Below, piece after piece: positions 22,784 through 33,957 of a stretch of 38,053 bases of DNA. Made by a program: the position numbers and the translations under genes. Source of the stretch: Blastopirellula marina DSM 3645. Its GTDB lineage: Bacteria > Planctomycetota > Planctomycetia > Pirellulales > Pirellulaceae. Location: positions 354,558 through 392,610 of the forward strand of contig NZ_CH672376.1 in the NCBI RefSeq assembly GCF_000153105.1, written 5' to 3'. Numbering within the stretch: the first letter of the stretch is position 1; each line of letters starts with the position of its first letter. A model generated the notes under the pieces. The model made no database searches. It saw only the letters and a program-made list of their open reading frames with translations, and was not told where the DNA came from.

Positions 22784-22812
22784 TTGTGACGTTTTTTCAG
22801 CGTGGCTATACT
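22784..22812 (+). promoter_or_regulatory. Sigma70-type promoter of the FabZ-ACP-FabZ-KAS operon
   Basis: TTGTGA (22784-22789) and TATACT (22807-22812) are separated by exactly 17 nt. The -10 matches consensus at five of six positions and the -35 at four. The predicted start site is near 22819, leaving a leader of about 57 nt before ATG 22876. Confidence 0.55.
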
Positions 22813-22832
22813 AGTGAGCTTTGACTTTGGGA

Positions 22833-22848
22833 CCTAGTTAGCACTAGG
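22833..22848. promoter_or_regulatory. Palindrome in the operon leader, candidate operator
   Basis: CCTAGT-TAGC-ACTAGG is a perfect 6-bp inverted repeat with a 4-nt centre. It lies about 15-30 bp downstream of the predicted transcription start, a position where a bound repressor would block elongation. A further ACTAGT palindrome overlaps the -10 box at 22810-22815, so three CTAG tetramers fall within 40 bp. Confidence 0.4.
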
Positions 22849-22875
22849 GATTAAGTAGGATTTTGGGACGCCGGC

Positions 22876-23352
22876 ATGCGATTCACCCTGATTGATCGAA
22901 TTACCGATCTGGTTCCGGGGGAGCGAATTATGGCGACCAAATGCCTATCGCTCGCCGAAGAATATTTACAGGATCACTTTCCCAAGTTCCCGGTTATGCC
23001 GGGCGTATTGATGCTGGAAGCGATGACGCAGACCAGCGCTTGGCTGATCCGTGCTTCCGAGGATTTCGCGCATAGCGTCGTTATTCTCCACGAAGCGCGG
23101 AACGTCAAATACGCCGACTTTGTCGAACCGGGGGAAGTGCTGACGGTTACCGCCGATTGGGTCAAGCAAGAAGGAAGCTTGACCTCGCTGAAGGTAAAAG
23201 GGACCGTGGCCGGTAACATGGCGGTCAGCGCGAAATTGGTGCTGAAGCGCTATAACGTGGGGGGGGACGAGTTGACTCCCACCGATCGGTTTGCAATCAG
23301 CAAGTTAAAAGAAGTTTTCAATTTACTGTATCCTGAAGGCGGCCGCGCTTAG
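22876..23352 (+). CDS. FabZ-like 3-hydroxyacyl-ACP dehydratase, copy 1
   Basis: 158 residues, a single hot-dog fold. The FabZ signature is clear: DHFPKFPVMPGVLMLEAMTQT (split here as DHFPKFPVMPG and VLMLEAM) with catalytic His34 and Glu48. Further on come VKYADFVEPGEVLTV and a C-terminal strand, as in FabZ. It would dehydrate 3-hydroxyacyl-ACP to trans-2-enoyl-ACP in the cytosol. ATG 22876 is first in a four-gene plus-strand unit. The short active-site helix and a 25-residue C-terminal extension differ from housekeeping FabZ, so this is probably a specialised paralogue. It could also be a non-catalytic partner of copy 2, although its active-site residues are intact. Confidence 0.88.
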   Translation: MRFTLIDRITDLVPGERIMATKCLSLAEEYLQDHFPKFPVMPGVLMLEAMTQTSAWLIRASEDFAHSVVILHEARNVKYADFVEPGEVLTVTADWVKQEGSLTSLKVKGTVAGNMAVSAKLVLKRYNVGGDELTPTDRFAISKLKEVFNLLYPEGGRA

Positions 23353-23391
23353 CCGGCTTGCTTAAGAAAGCCGCGGTGCGGCAAGCGACAA

Positions 23392-23412
23392 TCTCACCCA
23401 CCTTGGGTGAGA
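23392..23412 (+). other. Intercistronic hairpin before the ACP gene
   Basis: TCTCACCC (23392-23399) pairs perfectly with GGGTGAGA (23405-23412) around a 5-nt loop. A weaker GCTTGC/GCAAGC pair (23356-23361 and 23381-23386) precedes it. No T-run follows. The position, between the first dehydratase and the ACP gene and about 40 nt before the ACP start, suits an RNA processing or stability element that raises ACP expression relative to its neighbours. Confidence 0.45.
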
Positions 23413-23453
23413 AGCCATCTATTTCCTGGTTCAGCTTTGGAGAACGCATTCAG

Positions 23454-23840
23454 ATGCCGACGGAACAAGAAGTCTTCGAGAAGGTTCGCGAGGCCTTAGT
23501 CGACGCCCTAGGAGTTGACGAAGATGAAGTAACTCCGGAAGCGACGATGGTCGGCGACCTCGGCGCGGAATCCATTGACTTCCTCGATATCGTCTTCCGA
23601 CTGGAGAAGGCCTTTGGCATCGAGATTCCTCGGGCGGAATTGTTCCCCGAAGATATCTTGACGAACGCCGAATACGTCAATGACGGAAAAGTCACTCCCG
23701 AGGGACTTTCTGAACTGAAAAAGCGGATGGCCTTTGCCGACCTGTCGAAGTTTGAACAAAACCCGCAGGTATCGGAATTCGGTAATTTGCTGACGGTGAA
23801 CGACATGTGCAAATATGTCGAGAGCAAGTTGGCGGCGTAA
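23454..23840 (+). CDS. Long acyl carrier protein
   Basis: 128 residues from ATG 23454 (GGAGA upstream at about 23439). The phosphopantetheine site is Ser40 in GDLGAESIDFLDIVFRLE, the ACP DSL motif with Glu for Asp. Acidic helices before and after are as in ACPs. Normal ACPs are about 75-80 residues. Here some 35-40 extra residues (about 75-112, including VTPEGLSELKKRMAFADLSKFEQ) lie between the IEIP helix and the final TVNDMCKYVESKL helix. The extra segment could give partner specificity. It sits between two FabZ-like genes and upstream of a KAS gene, so it is very likely the dedicated carrier for this pathway. Confidence 0.9.
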   Translation: MPTEQEVFEKVREALVDALGVDEDEVTPEATMVGDLGAESIDFLDIVFRLEKAFGIEIPRAELFPEDILTNAEYVNDGKVTPEGLSELKKRMAFADLSKFEQNPQVSEFGNLLTVNDMCKYVESKLAA

Positions 23841-23911
23841 CGAGTCGTTGATCTTTGTGCTGATTGCAATCGGCGATCAGCGCGAAGGTCCGCTTGGAAG
23901 GGATCAGGGGA

Positions 23912-24448
23912 ATGCGTTGGTATTGGGTTGATCAGTTCCTCGAATTCGAGAGCGGAAAATCGGCCAAATCGATCAAATCGATTTCGCTCGCCGAAGAACA
24001 TCTGCATGACCACTTCCAAGGCATTCCCATCATGCCCCACTCGTTGGTCATTGAGGGGATCGCCCAAACCGGCGGACTTCTAGTCGCCCAATATTACGAT
24101 TTTCGAGAACGCGTCATTCTGGCGAAAGTATCGAAGGCAATCTTCCATTTTGCCGCGGTGCCCGGCACCCAACTGATTTACTCGGTCGAAGCGCACGATA
24201 TCCGCGAAGATGGCGCCTATATCTCGGCGACCAGTCATTGTGGAGAGCGATTGCACGCCGAGGTCGAATTGTTCTTTGCTCATCTGGACGAGCATGACAA
24301 TGACCGGCAACTGTTCGATACCGCTGATTTTCTGCAGTTGCTGCGAATTTATCGGCTCTTCGACATCGGAAAGAATGCCGACGGGTCGCCGATCCAGCCG
24401 CCGCAATACATGCTCGATGCGGAAGCGGCGGCATTGGGCCAAAATTAA
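23912..24448 (+). CDS. FabZ/FabA-like hot-dog dehydratase, copy 2
   Basis: 178 residues from ATG 23912 (GGAAGG about 10 nt upstream). SISLAEEHLHDHFQGIPIMPH then SLVIEGIAQTGG parallels copy 1 residue for residue, with His34 and Glu48 at identical positions. The Gly of the MPG motif is replaced by His (MPHSL). A C-terminal extension of about 45 residues (LLRIYRLFDIG...PPQYMLDAEAAALG) is not found in standard FabZ. Copies 1 and 2 probably arose by duplication and may form a heterodimer or act on different chain intermediates. It could act as a dehydratase, an isomerase or a structural subunit; the sequence does not decide. Confidence 0.85.
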   Translation: MRWYWVDQFLEFESGKSAKSIKSISLAEEHLHDHFQGIPIMPHSLVIEGIAQTGGLLVAQYYDFRERVILAKVSKAIFHFAAVPGTQLIYSVEAHDIREDGAYISATSHCGERLHAEVELFFAHLDEHDNDRQLFDTADFLQLLRIYRLFDIGKNADGSPIQPPQYMLDAEAAALGQN

Positions 24449-24581
24449 CCGCGCGCTGGATGCTCGATCGGACCGATAATATCAAAGATAGAGCGGACTG
24501 GCCGGTATCGTTTGCCGGCTTGTCTGCGTCTAATAATCGGTAATGTTCGCTTAGTTTCTCTTGTTTGGAGCTCCAGTCGTC

Positions 24582-25868
24582 ATGAGTCGACGAGTCGTCA
24601 TCACTGGAATCGGTATGATCAATCCGATGGGGCACGACGTCGAGACCGTCTGGTCTGGCCTGAAAGAATCGAAGTCGGGCGTCGCCCGAACGACGGTTTT
24701 TGACGCTTCCAACTTCCCCACCAAAATCTCGGCCGAAGTTCGCGATTGGAGCATCGACAAGTGCGGTGAAGATCTCAATCGCTGGGAGAACATTGGTCGC
24801 CATACGCGATTTGCCATCGGCGCCGCCAAGCAGGCGGTTTCCGACTCCGGCGTGTTGGACGGCTCCCTCGATCCGACGCGTTTGGGGGTTTATCTCGGTT
24901 GCGGAGAAGGGGATCAAGACTTCTTCGCTTTCACCACGATGGTGACCGCCGCGATGTCGGTAGACGGGGAATTCGACAAAGCCGCTTTCATTCGCAAAGG
25001 ATTAGAAACGCTCGATCCTCGCCGCGAACTGGAACAAGAGCCGAGCATGCCCAGCGCCCACTTGGCGTCGCTGTTCAACGCTCAAGGCCCGAACGCGAAC
25101 TGCTTGACCGCTTGTGCCGCTAGCAGCCAAGCGATCGGCGAAGCGACCGAACTGATTCGCCGTGGGACCGTCGATGTGATGCTGTCAGGCGGCGCTCACA
25201 GCATGATTCACCCGTTTGGCGTCACCGGCTTTAATCTGTTGACCGCGCTGTCGACCAGCAATGACGATCCGACCAAAGCGTCGCGTCCCTTTGATCGTCT
25301 GCGCGATGGTTTTGTCTTGGGCGAAGGCTCGTCGATGGTCGTGCTCGAAGAACTGGAGCACGCTAAAGCTCGCGGCGCCCATATCTATGGCGAAGTCTTG
25401 GGTTACGGCACGACGGCGGATGCGTTTCGAATTACCGACACGCACCCCGAAGGCCGCGGCGCGATCAGCTGCATGAAGATGGCGATGGCCGACGCCAAAG
25501 CGAATGTCGAAGACATTGACTATGTCAACGCTCACGGCACTAGCACCGAAGTCAACGACAAGGTCGAGTCGCTCGCGTGCCGTCAGGTCTTTGGCGCCAT
25601 GGCCGACAAGATTCCGGTTTCCAGCACCAAAAGCATGATGGGGCATTTGATCGCCGCCGCCGGAGTGACCGAAGCGATCGTCTGCTTGCTGGCGATTCGC
25701 GACAACGTGCTGCCGCCGACGATCAACTACGAAAACCCAGATCCAAATTGCAATTTGGACTACGTCCCTAATTTCGCTCGCGACGCGAAAGTCGACATCG
25801 CGCTGAACAACAGCTTCGGTTTCGGCGGCCAAAACATCACGCTCTGTCTTGGTCGATACAAAGCGTAA
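24582..25868 (+). CDS. 3-oxoacyl-ACP synthase, KAS II (FabF)-like
   Basis: 428 residues from ATG 24582 (GGAG 11 nt upstream). A thiolase-fold condensing enzyme with the full triad: Cys178 in LTACAASSQAIGEA, His318 in VNAHGTSTEVND, His355 in KSMMGHLIAAAG with Lys350, and the C-terminal NNSFGFGGQN loop. It elongates acyl chains by decarboxylative condensation with malonyl-ACP. Compared with FabF it has a longer segment before the Cys (about residues 108-168), where FabF forms the dimer interface and acyl pocket, so chain-length or substrate preference may differ. It is last in the operon and ends 1 nt from the convergent PQQ-propeller gene. Confidence 0.92.
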   Translation: MSRRVVITGIGMINPMGHDVETVWSGLKESKSGVARTTVFDASNFPTKISAEVRDWSIDKCGEDLNRWENIGRHTRFAIGAAKQAVSDSGVLDGSLDPTRLGVYLGCGEGDQDFFAFTTMVTAAMSVDGEFDKAAFIRKGLETLDPRRELEQEPSMPSAHLASLFNAQGPNANCLTACAASSQAIGEATELIRRGTVDVMLSGGAHSMIHPFGVTGFNLLTALSTSNDDPTKASRPFDRLRDGFVLGEGSSMVVLEELEHAKARGAHIYGEVLGYGTTADAFRITDTHPEGRGAISCMKMAMADAKANVEDIDYVNAHGTSTEVNDKVESLACRQVFGAMADKIPVSSTKSMMGHLIAAAGVTEAIVCLLAIRDNVLPPTINYENPDPNCNLDYVPNFARDAKVDIALNNSFGFGGQNITLCLGRYKA

Positions 25869-29703: not shown

Positions 29704-32700
29704 ATGCCGCCCATGAAACGCACTTCGCTCGCTCTGTTGATTGTCTGTCTGCTCGTCTCCTCGGCGCTGGCGGCTCCTAAGCCGCTCAAGGCCCTGCTCG
29801 TGACCGGGGGCTGTTGCCATGACTACGACAGTCAGAAGAACCTGATCAAGATCGGCCTGGAAGAACGAGCGCTGATCGAAGTCACAGTGGTTCATCAAGG
29901 GGGCTCCACCACCGACACCAAGATCCCGCTCTATCAAGATCCGAATTGGGCCAAGGGATACGACATCGTCCTGCACGACGAGTGCTTTGCAGGCGTCAAC
30001 GATCCCGCTTGGACGGCTCGCGTGTTGAAGCCGCATCAAGAAGGCGTACCCGGCGTGGTGATTCACTGTGCGATGCATTGTTATCGCGACAAGACGGATC
30101 AATGGTTCAAGTTTTGCGGCGTCACCTCGCATGGGCATGGGGCTCAATATCCGCACGAGGTTTTGAACGTCGACGCCGAGCATCCCATCATGGAAGAATT
30201 TGGCGCCGCATGGGCCAATCCGAAGGGAGAGCTGTATCACATCGCCAAGCTATGGCCCAGCGCCCACGCGTTGGGAGTCGCCAAAAATCAAGACAACGGC
30301 AAAGCCGAGACGTGCGTCTGGGTCAATCAATATGGGGACACGCGCGTCTTTGGAACCACGCTAGGACACCACAACGAAACGGTCAGCGCCGACAAGTTTC
30401 TCGATCTGCTGACGCGCGGCACGCTATGGGCCTGCGACAAGCTGAACGACGACTACCTAAAGCCGGAAATGCCGAAATTGGTTCCGGTCAACCTGGCGCA
30501 GGGCAAGTCGACGACGGCGTCGAGTGAAGAAACCGACAAAAGCAACTTCAAGCAGCTGGCGGTCGACGGCGATCCGGCGACTCGCTGGTGCGCCGGAAAT
30601 GGAAGTGCGCCGCAGTGGTTGATCGTCGACCTCGAAACGCCGCAGTCGATTCACGCCTGCGAGATTGATTGGGAGTCGGACCAAACGATCTATCGCTATA
30701 CGGTTGAAGTCTCGCCTGATCAAAACGTCTGGAAGACCGTGGTCGATCGCTCCCAGAACAATGGAGACCGCAATCACCAATTTGATTTTACGGCCGATGA
30801 CGTTCGTTATGTTCGCGTGCAATATCTCGGCAGCAACACCGGCGGTTGGGGAAGCATTCGCGAGCTGTCGGTTTTCGGCGATAAGTTTGTGACGGTCGAT
30901 CCGGTCGCCGACGCCAACAGCGCCGACGCGGAACTTTTGGCCAAAGTCAAAGTTCCGGCGGAGTTTGACGTCACGCTGTTCGCCGCTCCGCCGGCGGTCA
31001 CTTATCCGGTTTATGTCGCCGCGGCGCCAGACGGCGTTTGCTATGTTTCGGTCGACAAAAACGGTTCGCTTGATCGCAAGCTGAATCGCGGCGCCATCTA
31101 TCGCCTACGCGATATTGATGGAGATGGCCGCGCGGATGAATCGAAGTTATTCGTGTCGGATGTCGACTCGCCGCGGGGGCTGGTTTGGGATCGTGATCGC
31201 TTGTACGTGATGCATCCGCCGCATTTAAGCGCTTTCATCGACCATGACGGCGACGGCGTAGCGGACGAAGAGAAAGTGCTGGTCAAAAACATCGCTTTTG
31301 ATTTCAAAGGTCGGCCGGCCGATCATACGTCGAACGGCGTCACCCTGGGGATCGACGGTTGGCTTTATCTGGCGATCGGCGATTTTGGGTTTATGGAGGC
31401 CGAAGGCGCCGACGGGACCAAGCTGCAATTCCGCTACGGCGGCGTCATTCGCGTTCGACCCGATGGGAGCGGACTGCAGGTTTACTCCCGCGGCACGCGC
31501 AACATTCTCGAAGTGGCGCTCGATCCGCAGCTAAGTGGGTTTACTCGCGACAACACCAACGACGGCGGCGGCTGGGATATTCGCCTGCATCACTTCAGCG
31601 GGCTCGAAACGCATGGCTATCCGCGGCTGTACATGAACTTTGGCGATGAGATCGTACAGCCTTTGGCCGACTACGGCGGCGGTTCTGGCTGCGGCGCGCT
31701 GTACTTGAGCGAACCGGGATTCCCCGGTGAATATGGAGATGCGATCTATACGGCCGATTGGGGCCGCAGCATGATCTATCGCCATCTGCCGCAAGCCGAC
31801 GGCGCCACGTTTACCGCGGACCAAGAGGAATTCATCAAGCTGCCGCGCGTGACCGATTTGGATGTCGACGCGCAGGGCAACATTTACGCGACCAGTTGGG
31901 ACGGCGCCACGTTCACTTATAACGGTGAGCATGTCGGCTCGCTGATCCGCGTGACCCCCAAGGGATATCAGCCTCAACCGGTTCCTGATTTTCTCACGGC
32001 GACATCGGCGGAACTCGTGAAGCTGATCGCCGATTCGGCCAGTCATCGCATTCGTCTGGCCGCTCAACGAGAACTGCTGGCCCGCAACGTGGATGACGCG
32101 TCGGTCGCCGCTTTGACCAGGCTGGTCGAAAACAAATCGGCGCCGCTCGACAATCGGGTTGCGGCGATCTTCGCGCTCAAGCAATGGCTCGGCGAGCAGA
32201 GCCATGCGATTTTGGCGAAAGCGGCTGCAGACGAAAGCGTGCAAGCCTTCGCAATTCGCGCGTTGGCCGATCGTTGGGATCAGCAAGCAGAGATCCCGGT
32301 CGACCTGCTGTTGGCGAGCTTGAAGTCGAGCGATGCTCGTACGCAGCTCGAAGCGATCGTGGCGCTGACGCGGTTGGGCGACGTCAAAAATGCCGCGGCG
32401 CTGACCTCCTATTTGGACCATCGCGATCCCGTCATCGCGCATACCGCGGTGCAATCTCTGATCCTGTTGCAAGCTGCCGACGCCGCGTTGGCCGTAATCG
32501 ACAATCCCCAAGCGTCGCCTGCCCAGCGAACCGGAGCGATTCGCGTGGTGCAGTCGTTGCACGACGCCGATGTCGTCACCGCGTTGATCGCACGTTTAGC
32601 GAAAGAGCAAGACGCCGCGCGTCGCAGCGATCTGCTGATCGCGCTCTGCCGACTTTACAACCATGAAGGCACATGGACCGGGCAAAGCTGGGGCACGCGT

Positions 32701-33957
32701 CCCGATACGCGTGGTCCCTACTATCAGCCAGAGCCGTGGAGCGAATCGCCGCGCATCGCCGCCGCGCTGAAGAGTCAGCTGGAATCCCTAGCGCCGACCG
32801 ATGCCGAGTTTCTGTTGAAACAATTGGCCCGTCATCGCGTCGATCTCGACGGCAGTTTGCAACTGGTGTTGGCTCGCGCCGCTGCCGACGCTCAGTTTGT
32901 GCCCGCCGCGGTCACCAAGATCGCGGCCGGCGATTCGCTGCCGAGCGAAGCGATTCCGTTGCTCGAAAGCGTGGTTGCCGACGAAACCGCGGCAGCAACC
33001 GTGAAATCAGCGGCGGTCATCGCTTTGTTGCGATCGCAGGATAAAAAGGTGTTGGCCTCCGCTCACGCCGGTTTGAACATGCTGCATCGCGACGCGAAGT
33101 CGAAGGCCGCTTACTTGGCGGCGTTCGATGCGTTTAAAGACTCAGAGCGGTTGAGCCGCTGCGTTCATCCGTTGCAAGAGATGGCGGACTCCAACGCTGG
33201 GACCGCATCTGCGTGGGCCGACGCTGGACTGGTTTTGCTTTCGCAGCAGAAAAAGCTATCTCCGGAAGTGCAAGCGATTGTCACCAAGTCGATCGACTCT
33301 GGCTGGAGCGATCGCCCGCGTCAACGACTTCAAGCCGTCTATCTGGCGAATGATCGTCAGGCCGAAGAAAAGATCCTCGAACTGCTCGCGTCCAGCGATC
33401 CCCAAGTCAGCGCCGCCGCGCAGCGGATCGCCAACGCTTGGCGAATCAAGGCCGAAACGCCGAGCGGACCGAAGCTGAAGACGATGCAACCGGCCGACAT
33501 CCTCGCCCAGGTGATGAAGAAGAAGGGGGATGTAAAGCGGGGCGAACAACTCTTCGCCAAGCTTACCTGCAATCGTTGCCATACGGTCGACCCGAACGAA
33601 AAGCCGATCGGTCCTTACCTGCCGCAGGTCGCCAAAACCTACAAGCGCGAGCAGTTGGCCGAATCGGTCCTGTTGCCGAGCAAGACTTTCGCGCAAGGTT
33701 TTGTCACCAACATCTTTTTGCTCGACGACGGACGCGTGATGACGGCGTTCGTCACCAGCGAAGCGGCCGACGAAATCATCATTCGTGACGAACAAGGGAA
33801 TGAACACAAGCTTGACCCGGATGCGATCGATGCTCGCAAGAAGAGCGAGGTCTCGGTGATGCCCAAGGGGCTGACCGACGAGATCACGCTGGACGAGTTC
33901 ACTTCGTTGATCGACTATCTGCAATCGTTGGCCGCGAAGGCGCCAAGCGCCAAGTAA
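29704..33957 (+). CDS. Giant ThuA / discoidin / PVC propeller / HEAT / heme-c protein
   Basis: 1417 residues, exported by the signal LALLIVCLLVSSALAA. ATG 29713 is an alternative start; neither has a ribosome site. In order: ThuA-like domain (about 25-250; ALLVTGGCCHDY, VIHCAMHCYR, FGTTLGHHNETV); F5/8 type C carbohydrate-binding-like domain (about 262-390; NLAQGKSTTASS, VDGDPATRW, SIRELSVFGD); PVC-type membrane-bound dehydrogenase propeller (about 415-760) with two Asp-rich calcium-like loops, DIDGDGRADE and DHDGDGVADEE; HEAT-like helical repeats (about 775-1250); and a Pirellula-type heme domain with Cys1289-Asn-Arg-Cys-His1293. It probably oxidises or handles sugars outside the cytoplasm and passes electrons to the heme. 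The combination of parts is planctomycete-like. No substrate can be named. Confidence 0.9.
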   Translation: MPPMKRTSLALLIVCLLVSSALAAPKPLKALLVTGGCCHDYDSQKNLIKIGLEERALIEVTVVHQGGSTTDTKIPLYQDPNWAKGYDIVLHDECFAGVNDPAWTARVLKPHQEGVPGVVIHCAMHCYRDKTDQWFKFCGVTSHGHGAQYPHEVLNVDAEHPIMEEFGAAWANPKGELYHIAKLWPSAHALGVAKNQDNGKAETCVWVNQYGDTRVFGTTLGHHNETVSADKFLDLLTRGTLWACDKLNDDYLKPEMPKLVPVNLAQGKSTTASSEETDKSNFKQLAVDGDPATRWCAGNGSAPQWLIVDLETPQSIHACEIDWESDQTIYRYTVEVSPDQNVWKTVVDRSQNNGDRNHQFDFTADDVRYVRVQYLGSNTGGWGSIRELSVFGDKFVTVDPVADANSADAELLAKVKVPAEFDVTLFAAPPAVTYPVYVAAAPDGVCYVSVDKNGSLDRKLNRGAIYRLRDIDGDGRADESKLFVSDVDSPRGLVWDRDRLYVMHPPHLSAFIDHDGDGVADEEKVLVKNIAFDFKGRPADHTSNGVTLGIDGWLYLAIGDFGFMEAEGADGTKLQFRYGGVIRVRPDGSGLQVYSRGTRNILEVALDPQLSGFTRDNTNDGGGWDIRLHHFSGLETHGYPRLYMNFGDEIVQPLADYGGGSGCGALYLSEPGFPGEYGDAIYTADWGRSMIYRHLPQADGATFTADQEEFIKLPRVTDLDVDAQGNIYATSWDGATFTYNGEHVGSLIRVTPKGYQPQPVPDFLTATSAELVKLIADSASHRIRLAAQRELLARNVDDASVAALTRLVENKSAPLDNRVAAIFALKQWLGEQSHAILAKAAADESVQAFAIRALADRWDQQAEIPVDLLLASLKSSDARTQLEAIVALTRLGDVKNAAALTSYLDHRDPVIAHTAVQSLILLQAADAALAVIDNPQASPAQRTGAIRVVQSLHDADVVTALIARLAKEQDAARRSDLLIALCRLYNHEGTWTGQSWGTRPDTRGPYYQPEPWSESPRIAAALKSQLESLAPTDAEFLLKQLARHRVDLDGSLQLVLARAAADAQFVPAAVTKIAAGDSLPSEAIPLLESVVADETAAATVKSAAVIALLRSQDKKVLASAHAGLNMLHRDAKSKAAYLAAFDAFKDSERLSRCVHPLQEMADSNAGTASAWADAGLVLLSQQKKLSPEVQAIVTKSIDSGWSDRPRQRLQAVYLANDRQAEEKILELLASSDPQVSAAAQRIANAWRIKAETPSGPKLKTMQPADILAQVMKKKGDVKRGEQLFAKLTCNRCHTVDPNEKPIGPYLPQVAKTYKREQLAESVLLPSKTFAQGFVTNIFLLDDGRVMTAFVTSEAADEIIIRDEQGNEHKLDPDAIDARKKSEVSVMPKGLTDEITLDEFTSLIDYLQSLAAKAPSAK

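Follow-up and report, generated by a model that had tools for sequence, protein, structure and literature searches.

We analyzed a 38,053-nucleotide stretch of Blastopirellula marina DSM 3645 (contig NZ_CH672376.1, forward-strand positions 354,558 to 392,610), hereafter the window, in which four consecutive plus-strand open reading frames (ORFs) at positions 22876 to 25868 encode two FabZ-like dehydratases, an acyl carrier protein (ACP), and a beta-ketoacyl-ACP synthase (KAS). The first gene (22876 to 23352) encodes FabZ1, a FabZ-like (3R)-hydroxyacyl-ACP dehydratase subunit of 158 amino acids predicted to supply an invariant His34. It is followed by genes for a long ACP of 128 amino acids with phosphopantetheine Ser40 (23454 to 23840), for FabZ2, a FabZ-like partner subunit of 178 amino acids predicted to supply an invariant Glu48 (23912 to 24448), and for a KAS II-like enzyme of 428 amino acids (24582 to 25868), which we call KSalpha. 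Gaps of 101, 71, and 133 bp separate the genes in that order. All four proteins exceeded Pfam gathering cut-offs (FabA-like domain, 65.3 bits for FabZ1 and 48.6 bits for FabZ2; PP-binding, 48 bits for the ACP; ketoacyl-synt N and C, 151.8 and 127.4 bits for the KAS). The ACP is further supported by a family alignment and an AlphaFold model, and KSalpha by an active-site alignment, its clade, and an insert after residue ~110. These assignments bear out the gene order given in an initial annotation of this DNA, which was made by a model from the sequence letters, and the catalytic residues that it named were all found: His34 and Glu48 in both FabZ1 and FabZ2, Ser40 in the ACP, and Cys178, His318, and His355 in the KAS, which also has Lys350.

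Both flanking genes, a PtsI-like gene upstream and a pyrroloquinoline quinone (PQQ)-repeat protein gene downstream, lie on the minus strand, and thus the four-gene unit stands alone. It is not the self-contained operon that had been described, as it holds no FabG, FabD, or FabI and no enoyl reductase. The initial annotation had also begun the unit at 22784. This start coincides with one possible weak promoter on the plus strand (TTGTGA-17-TATACT, 22784 to 22812), but the consensus scan returned 2 matches in the region against 1.7 expected, a count at chance level that is not evidence of function.

Housekeeping FabG, ACP, and FabF adjoin each other elsewhere in the same genome (6.66 Mb in 3 contigs; G000 in our set) at C2:1108248-1110195, preceded by rpmF and fabD, both named by eye. 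Because these genes are sited elsewhere, the window operon represents a second set. On the fabF equivalog model TIGR03150 (cut-off, 493.75 bits), the housekeeping FabF (C2:1109464) scored 618 bits and the window KAS 477 bits. The two proteins are 41% identical, and the window KAS passed the broader subfamily model NF005589 (469 bits; cut-off, 387). Scoring under the fabF cut-off and encoded apart from fabD, fabG, and acp, it does not fall within housekeeping type II fatty acid synthesis (FAS II). These scores and positions, together with a KAS clade of its own (see below), support the earlier view of a dedicated set, and by these measures the four-gene operon is a second acyl set distinct from housekeeping FAS II. 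The initial annotation had recognized that the four genes would themselves be the housekeeping ones if the host held no other FabF, FabZ, or ACP. That possibility fails for FabF and ACP; for FabZ, two further FabZ-like genes exist (C2:1053243 and C2:4139102) as candidates for the general dehydratase. No fabZ was seen in the housekeeping cluster, as read by eye, and none of the four FabZ-like proteins of the genome reached the NCBIfam FabZ cut-off of 113 bits (99.3 for window FabZ1 and 70.9, 78.4, and 109 for the other three).

Searching 199 genomes sampled from the phylum for the long ACP, we obtained matches at 1e-8 or better in 78, which fell into two sharply separated groups. The upper group comprised 31 genomes with full-length matches (E of 2.2e-31 or better, 47 to 100% identity; next best match, 4e-14) and included all 12 sampled genomes of the window's class, whereas 168 of the 199 had no such ACP at this level. 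In a wider sample of the class, the long ACP was found in 195 of 198 genomes (176 of the 177 good assemblies), nearly always in single copy. On these matches, the long ACP is a core gene of the class, Planctomycetia as judged from named relatives, with a patchier distribution elsewhere in the phylum, and its presence in 195 of 198 genomes indicates a core system, not a sporadic cluster. The distribution contradicts the earlier picture of a specialized, sporadic pathway, and the notion of a gene set absent elsewhere also fell, as the long ACP is class-wide and occurs in parts of other classes.

We surveyed gene order around 110 long-ACP loci besides the window, 30 from the phylum sample and 80 from a contig library. 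The latter, the best 80 of 446 relatives, are largely Pirellulales by title, with Rhodopirellula and Stieleria among them, and are biased to close kin; the scope of the survey is the phylum, other phyla not having been properly scanned. The prevailing order was FabZ1-(FabG)-ACP-FabZ2-KAS(-KAS), in agreement with the conservation of gene order that had been anticipated. FabZ1-ACP-FabZ2-KAS was found in 57 of the 110 loci, with 12 more having FabG between FabZ1 and the ACP. FabZ1-ACP-FabZ2 without a near KAS accounted for 12 loci (and 5 more with FabG), two-KAS arrangements for 10 (and 2 with FabG and 2 odd ones), and partial patterns, some of them at contig ends, for 10. Overall, a KAS lay downstream of the long ACP in 90 loci, FabG lay inside the operon in 20, and two KAS genes were adjacent in 13; L143 was not counted among the last, as its two KAS matches look like one gene split in the alignment. 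FabZ-like genes flanked the long ACP on each side in 99 of the 110 loci, which puts this order beyond chance. FabZ1 was missing beside the ACP in L126, L134, L139, L148, and L161, and L102 had the ACP and KAS with neither FabZ beside the ACP. Four contigs of metagenome-assembled genomes titled Candidatus Kuenenia stuttgartiensis (L125, L137, L153, and L156) carry the window-type operon with ACPs 69 to 73% identical to that of the window; these titles are probably wrong.

The aligned dehydratases revealed an asymmetric pair that the initial annotation had overlooked. His34 was present in all 103 FabZ1 rows (window included), and Glu48 in 98, with Gln in the other 5. Conversely, Glu48 was present in all 107 FabZ2 rows and His34 in 66 (Tyr in 33, another residue or a gap in 8); window FabZ2 still has His34. 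Across the 100 rows in which both FabZ genes were readable (the window and 99 loci), the combination of His from FabZ1 and Glu from FabZ2 was intact in all 100. The opposite combination was intact in 59; its His was missing from 36 rows and its Glu from 5, never both together.

Loci lacking a neighboring FabZ gene were informative in this respect. When we searched six genomes for FabZ1, those of five exception loci and that of L133 as a positive control, all six gave a match (E of 9.6e-32 or better). For L126, L139, L148, and L161, FabZ1 is sited elsewhere in the genome and has kept both His and Glu. In the genome of L102 (G554), FabZ1 and FabZ2 are fused in one 360-residue frame (locus L273) on a different contig from the ACP and KAS, with His and Glu in the FabZ1 half and Tyr for His but an intact Glu in the FabZ2 half. 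A single-chain model of FabZ2 adopted a hot-dog fold (predicted local distance difference test [pLDDT], 92.5) whose best Foldseek matches were FabZ. In FabZ, the His and Glu of an active site come from different chains. Active sites of hot-dog dimers are described as using residues of both subunits (PMC2698920), and aryl-polyene ApeI/ApeP as a heterodimeric dehydratase with a single site (PMC8041823). A one-site heterodimer would explain both the residue pattern and the G554 fusion, which two homodimers do not, and the fusion together with the displaced FabZ1 genes gives the paired reading firmer support. We infer that FabZ1 and FabZ2 form a physical heterodimer with one essential site, made of the His of FabZ1 and the Glu of FabZ2.

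A second asymmetry, likewise overlooked, lies in Cys-less ketosynthases encoded elsewhere than the window operon. Among 87 KAS rows (ORFs of 380 to 480 amino acids only, with the window KAS in twice), 79 kept the active-site Cys, and all 8 rows without it came first in a KAS pair, counting pairs interrupted by a contig end. The window genome has two orphan Cys-less KAS, at C2:2204878, with Glu for Cys, and at C3:204063, whose protein aligns Ser at the Cys position and has Asp next to it. In a tree of 62 hand-chosen rows (21 of 47 anammox-like and 10 of 39 other KAS rows), built by a quick method without bootstrap, both orphans grouped with the first KAS of two-KAS operons (19 rows; Shimodaira-Hasegawa-like approximate likelihood ratio test [SH-aLRT], 99). 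The window KAS grouped with the second KAS (16 rows; SH-aLRT, 99), and housekeeping FabF and the anammox-like KAS grouped together (25 rows; SH-aLRT, 99). A more careful 56-row tree agreed on the clade of the window KAS (26 rows; 100/97). The two operon types and the orphans also share an insert. The segment after residue 100 spanned 69 to 75 amino acids in 37 rows (both operon KAS types and orphans), 56 in 24, and 54 in 1, with 70 in the window KAS versus 56 in FabF. Thus, KSalpha and the Cys-less KAS, which we call KSbeta, have in common 13 to 19 residues that none of the compared housekeeping or anammox-like KAS contains. In FabF, this segment lines the acyl pocket and the dimer contact, and a changed acyl pocket in the insert-bearing KAS is therefore likely.

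KSbeta also tracks the long ACP. A Glu-type KSbeta query at 1e-60 matched 19 of the 199 phylum genomes, all 19 of which have the long ACP, and outside the class the matches were the operon's own first KAS. From this co-occurrence, the shared insert, and adjacency in some relatives, we infer that KSalpha and KSbeta would form a physical pair.

The ACP is ~50 residues longer than an ordinary ACP, with the extra part lying between helix 2 and the last helix. D35-L36 and A38-E39-S40-I41-D42 were invariant in the family alignment, and the AlphaFold single-chain model (pLDDT, 90.9) folded the extra segment as short helices. Foldseek ranked ordinary ACPs first and second and rhizobial AcpXL (2kw2) third, with E values close together. 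The window ACP lies outside the AcpXL family proper, scoring 55.4 bits on NF005079 against a cut-off of 83; by analogy with AcpXL, it may carry very long chains. A second, divergent family of long ACPs (130 to 144 amino acids, 32 to 36% identical) was seen in L088 to L091 (G149, G065, G117, and G044); in 3 of the 4 loci the stretch also contains FabZ-like or KAS genes.

Considering these results together, we propose that these genes encode the conserved core of a second acyl synthase of type II, present alongside housekeeping FAS II in nearly all sampled members of the class and having a paired architecture, FabZ1:FabZ2 and KSalpha:KSbeta, a reading to which we assign a probability of roughly 0.65. 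The long ACP would carry the growing chain, and KSalpha would elongate it with a Cys-less KSbeta as its partner, encoded just upstream of KSalpha in some relatives and in trans in the window genome (C2:2204878 and C3:204063). FabZ1 and FabZ2 would form one heterodimeric dehydratase built around the split His-Glu site. Ketoreduction would be performed by a FabG, encoded within the operon in 20 of the 110 relatives and here supplied by the housekeeping cluster. Together with the enoyl reductase of the cell, the system would produce an envelope acyl chain that is long or very long.

Several observations weigh against this proposal, and we hold the dehydratase pairing with more confidence than the ketosynthase pairing. 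Window FabZ2 has both His and Glu, so each dehydratase could work alone here. The minimum number of losses on trees built without these columns (6 for the FabZ2 His and 3 for the FabZ1 Glu) is approximate for the His, as some FabZ2 rows (family f16 and L075) align poorly at that position. L166 has FabZ1, FabG, and the ACP but neither FabZ2 nor KAS within 9 kb downstream. Among the 31 long-ACP genomes, 12 gave no KSbeta-type match at 1e-60, although in 4 of these (G031, G093, G127, and G142) the operon's first KAS lacks Cys. The first KAS of family f16 has retained Cys and takes a position between the clades. KSbeta gene neighborhoods are not conserved, and KSbeta adjoins a housekeeping-type FabF in 2 of 17 stretches of other genomes (G069 and G181) and also in G048, so that FabF may be its partner. 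Apart from this adjoining FabF, the surroundings of orphan KSbeta genes gave no clue to the product. In G069 and G181, KSbeta comes after plsX, fabD, acp, and fabF, genes named by eye and, for G181, also read as sequences. This context links KSbeta to fatty acids yet would again allow FabF as the partner. Finally, given that all FabZ-like proteins of the genome score under the NCBIfam FabZ cut-off, the FabZ1/FabZ2 pair might also act as general dehydratase of the cell.

The last two points bear directly on a different explanation, in which FabZ1/FabZ2 and KSalpha stand in for a housekeeping FabZ that the class would lack and work with the housekeeping ACP in ordinary fatty acid synthesis. The housekeeping cluster without a visible fabZ fits this idea, as does the plsX-fabD-acp-fabF context of KSbeta. 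However, two further FabZ-like genes exist, FabZ1 and FabZ2 accompany a divergent ACP in 99 of 110 loci, and 168 of 199 phylum genomes have no such ACP at the level of the upper group, and we judge a replacement to be quite improbable. A reducing type II polyketide synthase (PKS) of the aryl-polyene kind, which would omit enoyl reduction and make a conjugated polyene acyl chain, is also unlikely. Aryl-polyene systems (ApeO-ApeC, ApeI-ApeP, and ApeQ) have the same minimal set, with a ketosynthase-chain length factor (KS-CLF) pair, a one-site heterodimeric dehydratase, a FabG-like reductase, and their own ACP (PMC8041823, PMC8358021), and the window operon has no enoyl reductase. The 100-row residue pattern and the one fusion would fit such a dehydratase, but window FabZ2 keeps both residues. 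Unlike in an aryl-polyene cluster, the window operon has one KAS, the Cys-less KAS being elsewhere in the genome. KSbeta is full length and encoded in trans, whereas ApeC is a half-size CLF in the description available (PMC8358021). The operon lacks ligase, thioesterase, acyl- or glycosyltransferase, and export genes, its flanks being the PtsI-like and PQQ-repeat genes, and no Escherichia coli-type ligase, thioesterase, glycosyltransferase, or lipid exporter was found among the recurring neighbors identified in relatives, the smaller families not having been examined. Moreover, a set found in 195 of 198 class genomes is more readily understood as making a core lipid than a pigment.

Kinship with the ladderane gene set of anammox planctomycetes, which the initial annotation had raised and which would imply ladderane-like or polyunsaturated chains, is very improbable. 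The two are alike in comprising an ACP, FabZ, and paired KAS of which one is Cys-less (PMC2649909, PMC4790861), in the anammox case within kuste3603-3608 (PMC4790861). The anammox ACP is a different one, however: the long ACP was found in none of the 10 genomes of the anammox-like families f44 and f75 in the phylum sample. The anammox-like KAS pairs group with housekeeping FabF in the 62-row tree, outside the clades of the operon KAS, and all 21 rows compared lack the insert. An approximately unbiased (AU) test, from which one long-branch KAS of G000 was left out, disfavored a single clade of all Cys-less KAS (p-AU, 0.024), which long branches make moderate evidence. The window operon also has neither an orthologous ACP or KAS nor a radical SAM or phytoene-desaturase-like gene, its neighbors being the PtsI-like and PQQ-repeat genes. 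ACP presence, KAS tree, insert, and AU test all argue against kinship, which we rejected. Our labeling of f44, f75, and f95 as anammox relies on HZS_alpha matches, which lie in ~800- to 850-amino-acid frames, together with active-site replacements, Val-Asn-Lys-Glu and Phe-Asn-Lys-Glu, which are those of Kuste3606 and Kuste2805 in the table of Rattray et al.; HZS_alpha matched 76 of 392 genomes and would alone be a weak label. That study (Rattray 2009, Table 2, PMC2649909), in the part available, listed two orphan Cys-less KAS in Rhodopirellula baltica, NP_865682 (Asp) and NP_866153 (Glu), and grouped them with those of Kuenenia. The window genome likewise has two, one with Glu for Cys, the other position being Asp there and Ser or Asp here. 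Unlike in that tree, our two orphans group with the operon first KAS, R. baltica not being in our set. The KAS tree and the insert thus tell two kinds of Cys-less KAS apart, and the window type appears separate from the anammox ladderane candidates with which such proteins were earlier grouped.

Other acyl genes were seen in the window genome. A second group at C2:4136900-4144100 (L092 12905-18430, L093 1782-3035) contains a KAS III-like gene on the opposite strand, an enoyl-reductase-like short-chain dehydrogenase/reductase, FabZ, ACP, KAS, and two flavin amine-oxidase-type oxidoreductases, phytoene-desaturase-like by eye, and its content recalls anammox and Desulfotalea sets more than the window operon does. 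Two large synthase frames lie at C2:3235532-3245026 (3638 amino acids; two KS and three ACP matches) and C3:27951-34689 (2565 amino acids; KS, a reductase-like stretch, and ACP).

The paired acyl synthase that we favor has a close parallel in the acpXL-fabZXL-fabF1XL-fabF2XL-lpxXL cluster of rhizobia, which provides very-long-chain acyl groups for lipid A (PMC5613085). That cluster likewise has an enlarged ACP, its own FabZ, and two adjacent KAS genes, with no FabG or FabI named in the portion of the source consulted, and an operon without enoyl reductase, malonyl transferase, or ketoreductase resembles it in this respect. The window set differs in its longer ACP and two FabZ genes, and no LpxXL-type gene was found in the window operon or among the identified recurring neighbors of relatives. 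Mycobacterial HadAB, with AcpM, offers another heterodimeric dehydratase for very long chains, in which one subunit is catalytic and the other holds the chain (PMC4491049, in the part seen). There, a His-Asp dyad lies within HadB, of different sequence, whereas here a His-Glu dyad would be split over two FabZ-like chains. As far as its sequence goes, the set would work like the AcpXL cluster or the aryl-polyene KS-CLF system but belongs to neither.

By this analogy, we tentatively suggest that the product is a long-chain acyl group of the envelope, most likely destined for an outer-membrane lipid such as lipid A. Long-chain beta-hydroxy acids are reported, in the title of Kerger 1988 (as cited in PMC3422733), to be uniquely high in the lipid A of Pirellula and Planctomyces. 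Of the 199 phylum genomes, 195 have LpxC and 31 the long ACP, which lipid A therefore does not require; being near-universal, LpxC cannot discriminate, and we discarded lipopolysaccharide (LPS) co-occurrence as a test of the product. LpxC frames span ~430 to 490 amino acids in many genomes outside the class and ~296 to 366 in the listed class members, and a fusion of LpxC with FabZ outside the class is possible. Also weighing against the proposal, the recurring neighbor families identified in relatives, ten scanned by Pfam and a few more read by eye, included no acyltransferase. Nine of the ten were DUF1501, PtsI-like, Hsp20, PSCyt2/PSD1, a weak GXGXG match, a sigma-54 regulator, SIS-CBS, a major facilitator superfamily (MFS) transporter, and ribosomal S12; the tenth, of no recognized kind, overlaps an ACP and is probably an artifact. 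Neighbor offsets rest on 85 of 111 loci, ORF calling having missed the ACP in 26, and the opposite-strand PtsI-like neighbor recurred in 11 of those 85. SIS-CBS proteins include the 3-deoxy-D-manno-octulosonate (Kdo) enzyme KdsD. In seven loci (L111, L125, L129, L141, L144, L150, and L152), one is encoded on the strand of the long ACP, 4.7 to 8.4 kb downstream of it, at most a faint hint of LPS. Within the window, a 1417-amino-acid ORF at 29704 to 33957 (plus strand) is unrelated to the operon.

These results describe what appears to be a variant of the type II acyl synthase with heterodimeric subunits, distinguished by being core to the whole class and by a proposed active site split between two chains; no description of this operon was found among titles and abstract openings of the open-licence papers that literature searches listed. 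Retention in 195 of 198 class genomes points to core physiology. The planctomycete envelope is much debated, with a lipid A bearing unusual long-chain acids, and the operon offers a small, concrete target. The residue pattern and the natural fusion yield a sharp, testable claim that one active site is made from two FabZ chains, and a partner can now be proposed for Cys-less KAS such as those described from Rhodopirellula in 2009. A bolder version, which we regard as speculative, is that a Planctomycetia-wide core pathway runs on obligate half-dead heterodimers, FabZ1:FabZ2 and KSalpha:KSbeta, in which two alternative trans-encoded KSbeta proteins set two chain lengths or outputs on one oversized ACP and the product is new to lipid biochemistry. 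If this were true, the pathway would supply an envelope lipid that defines the class.

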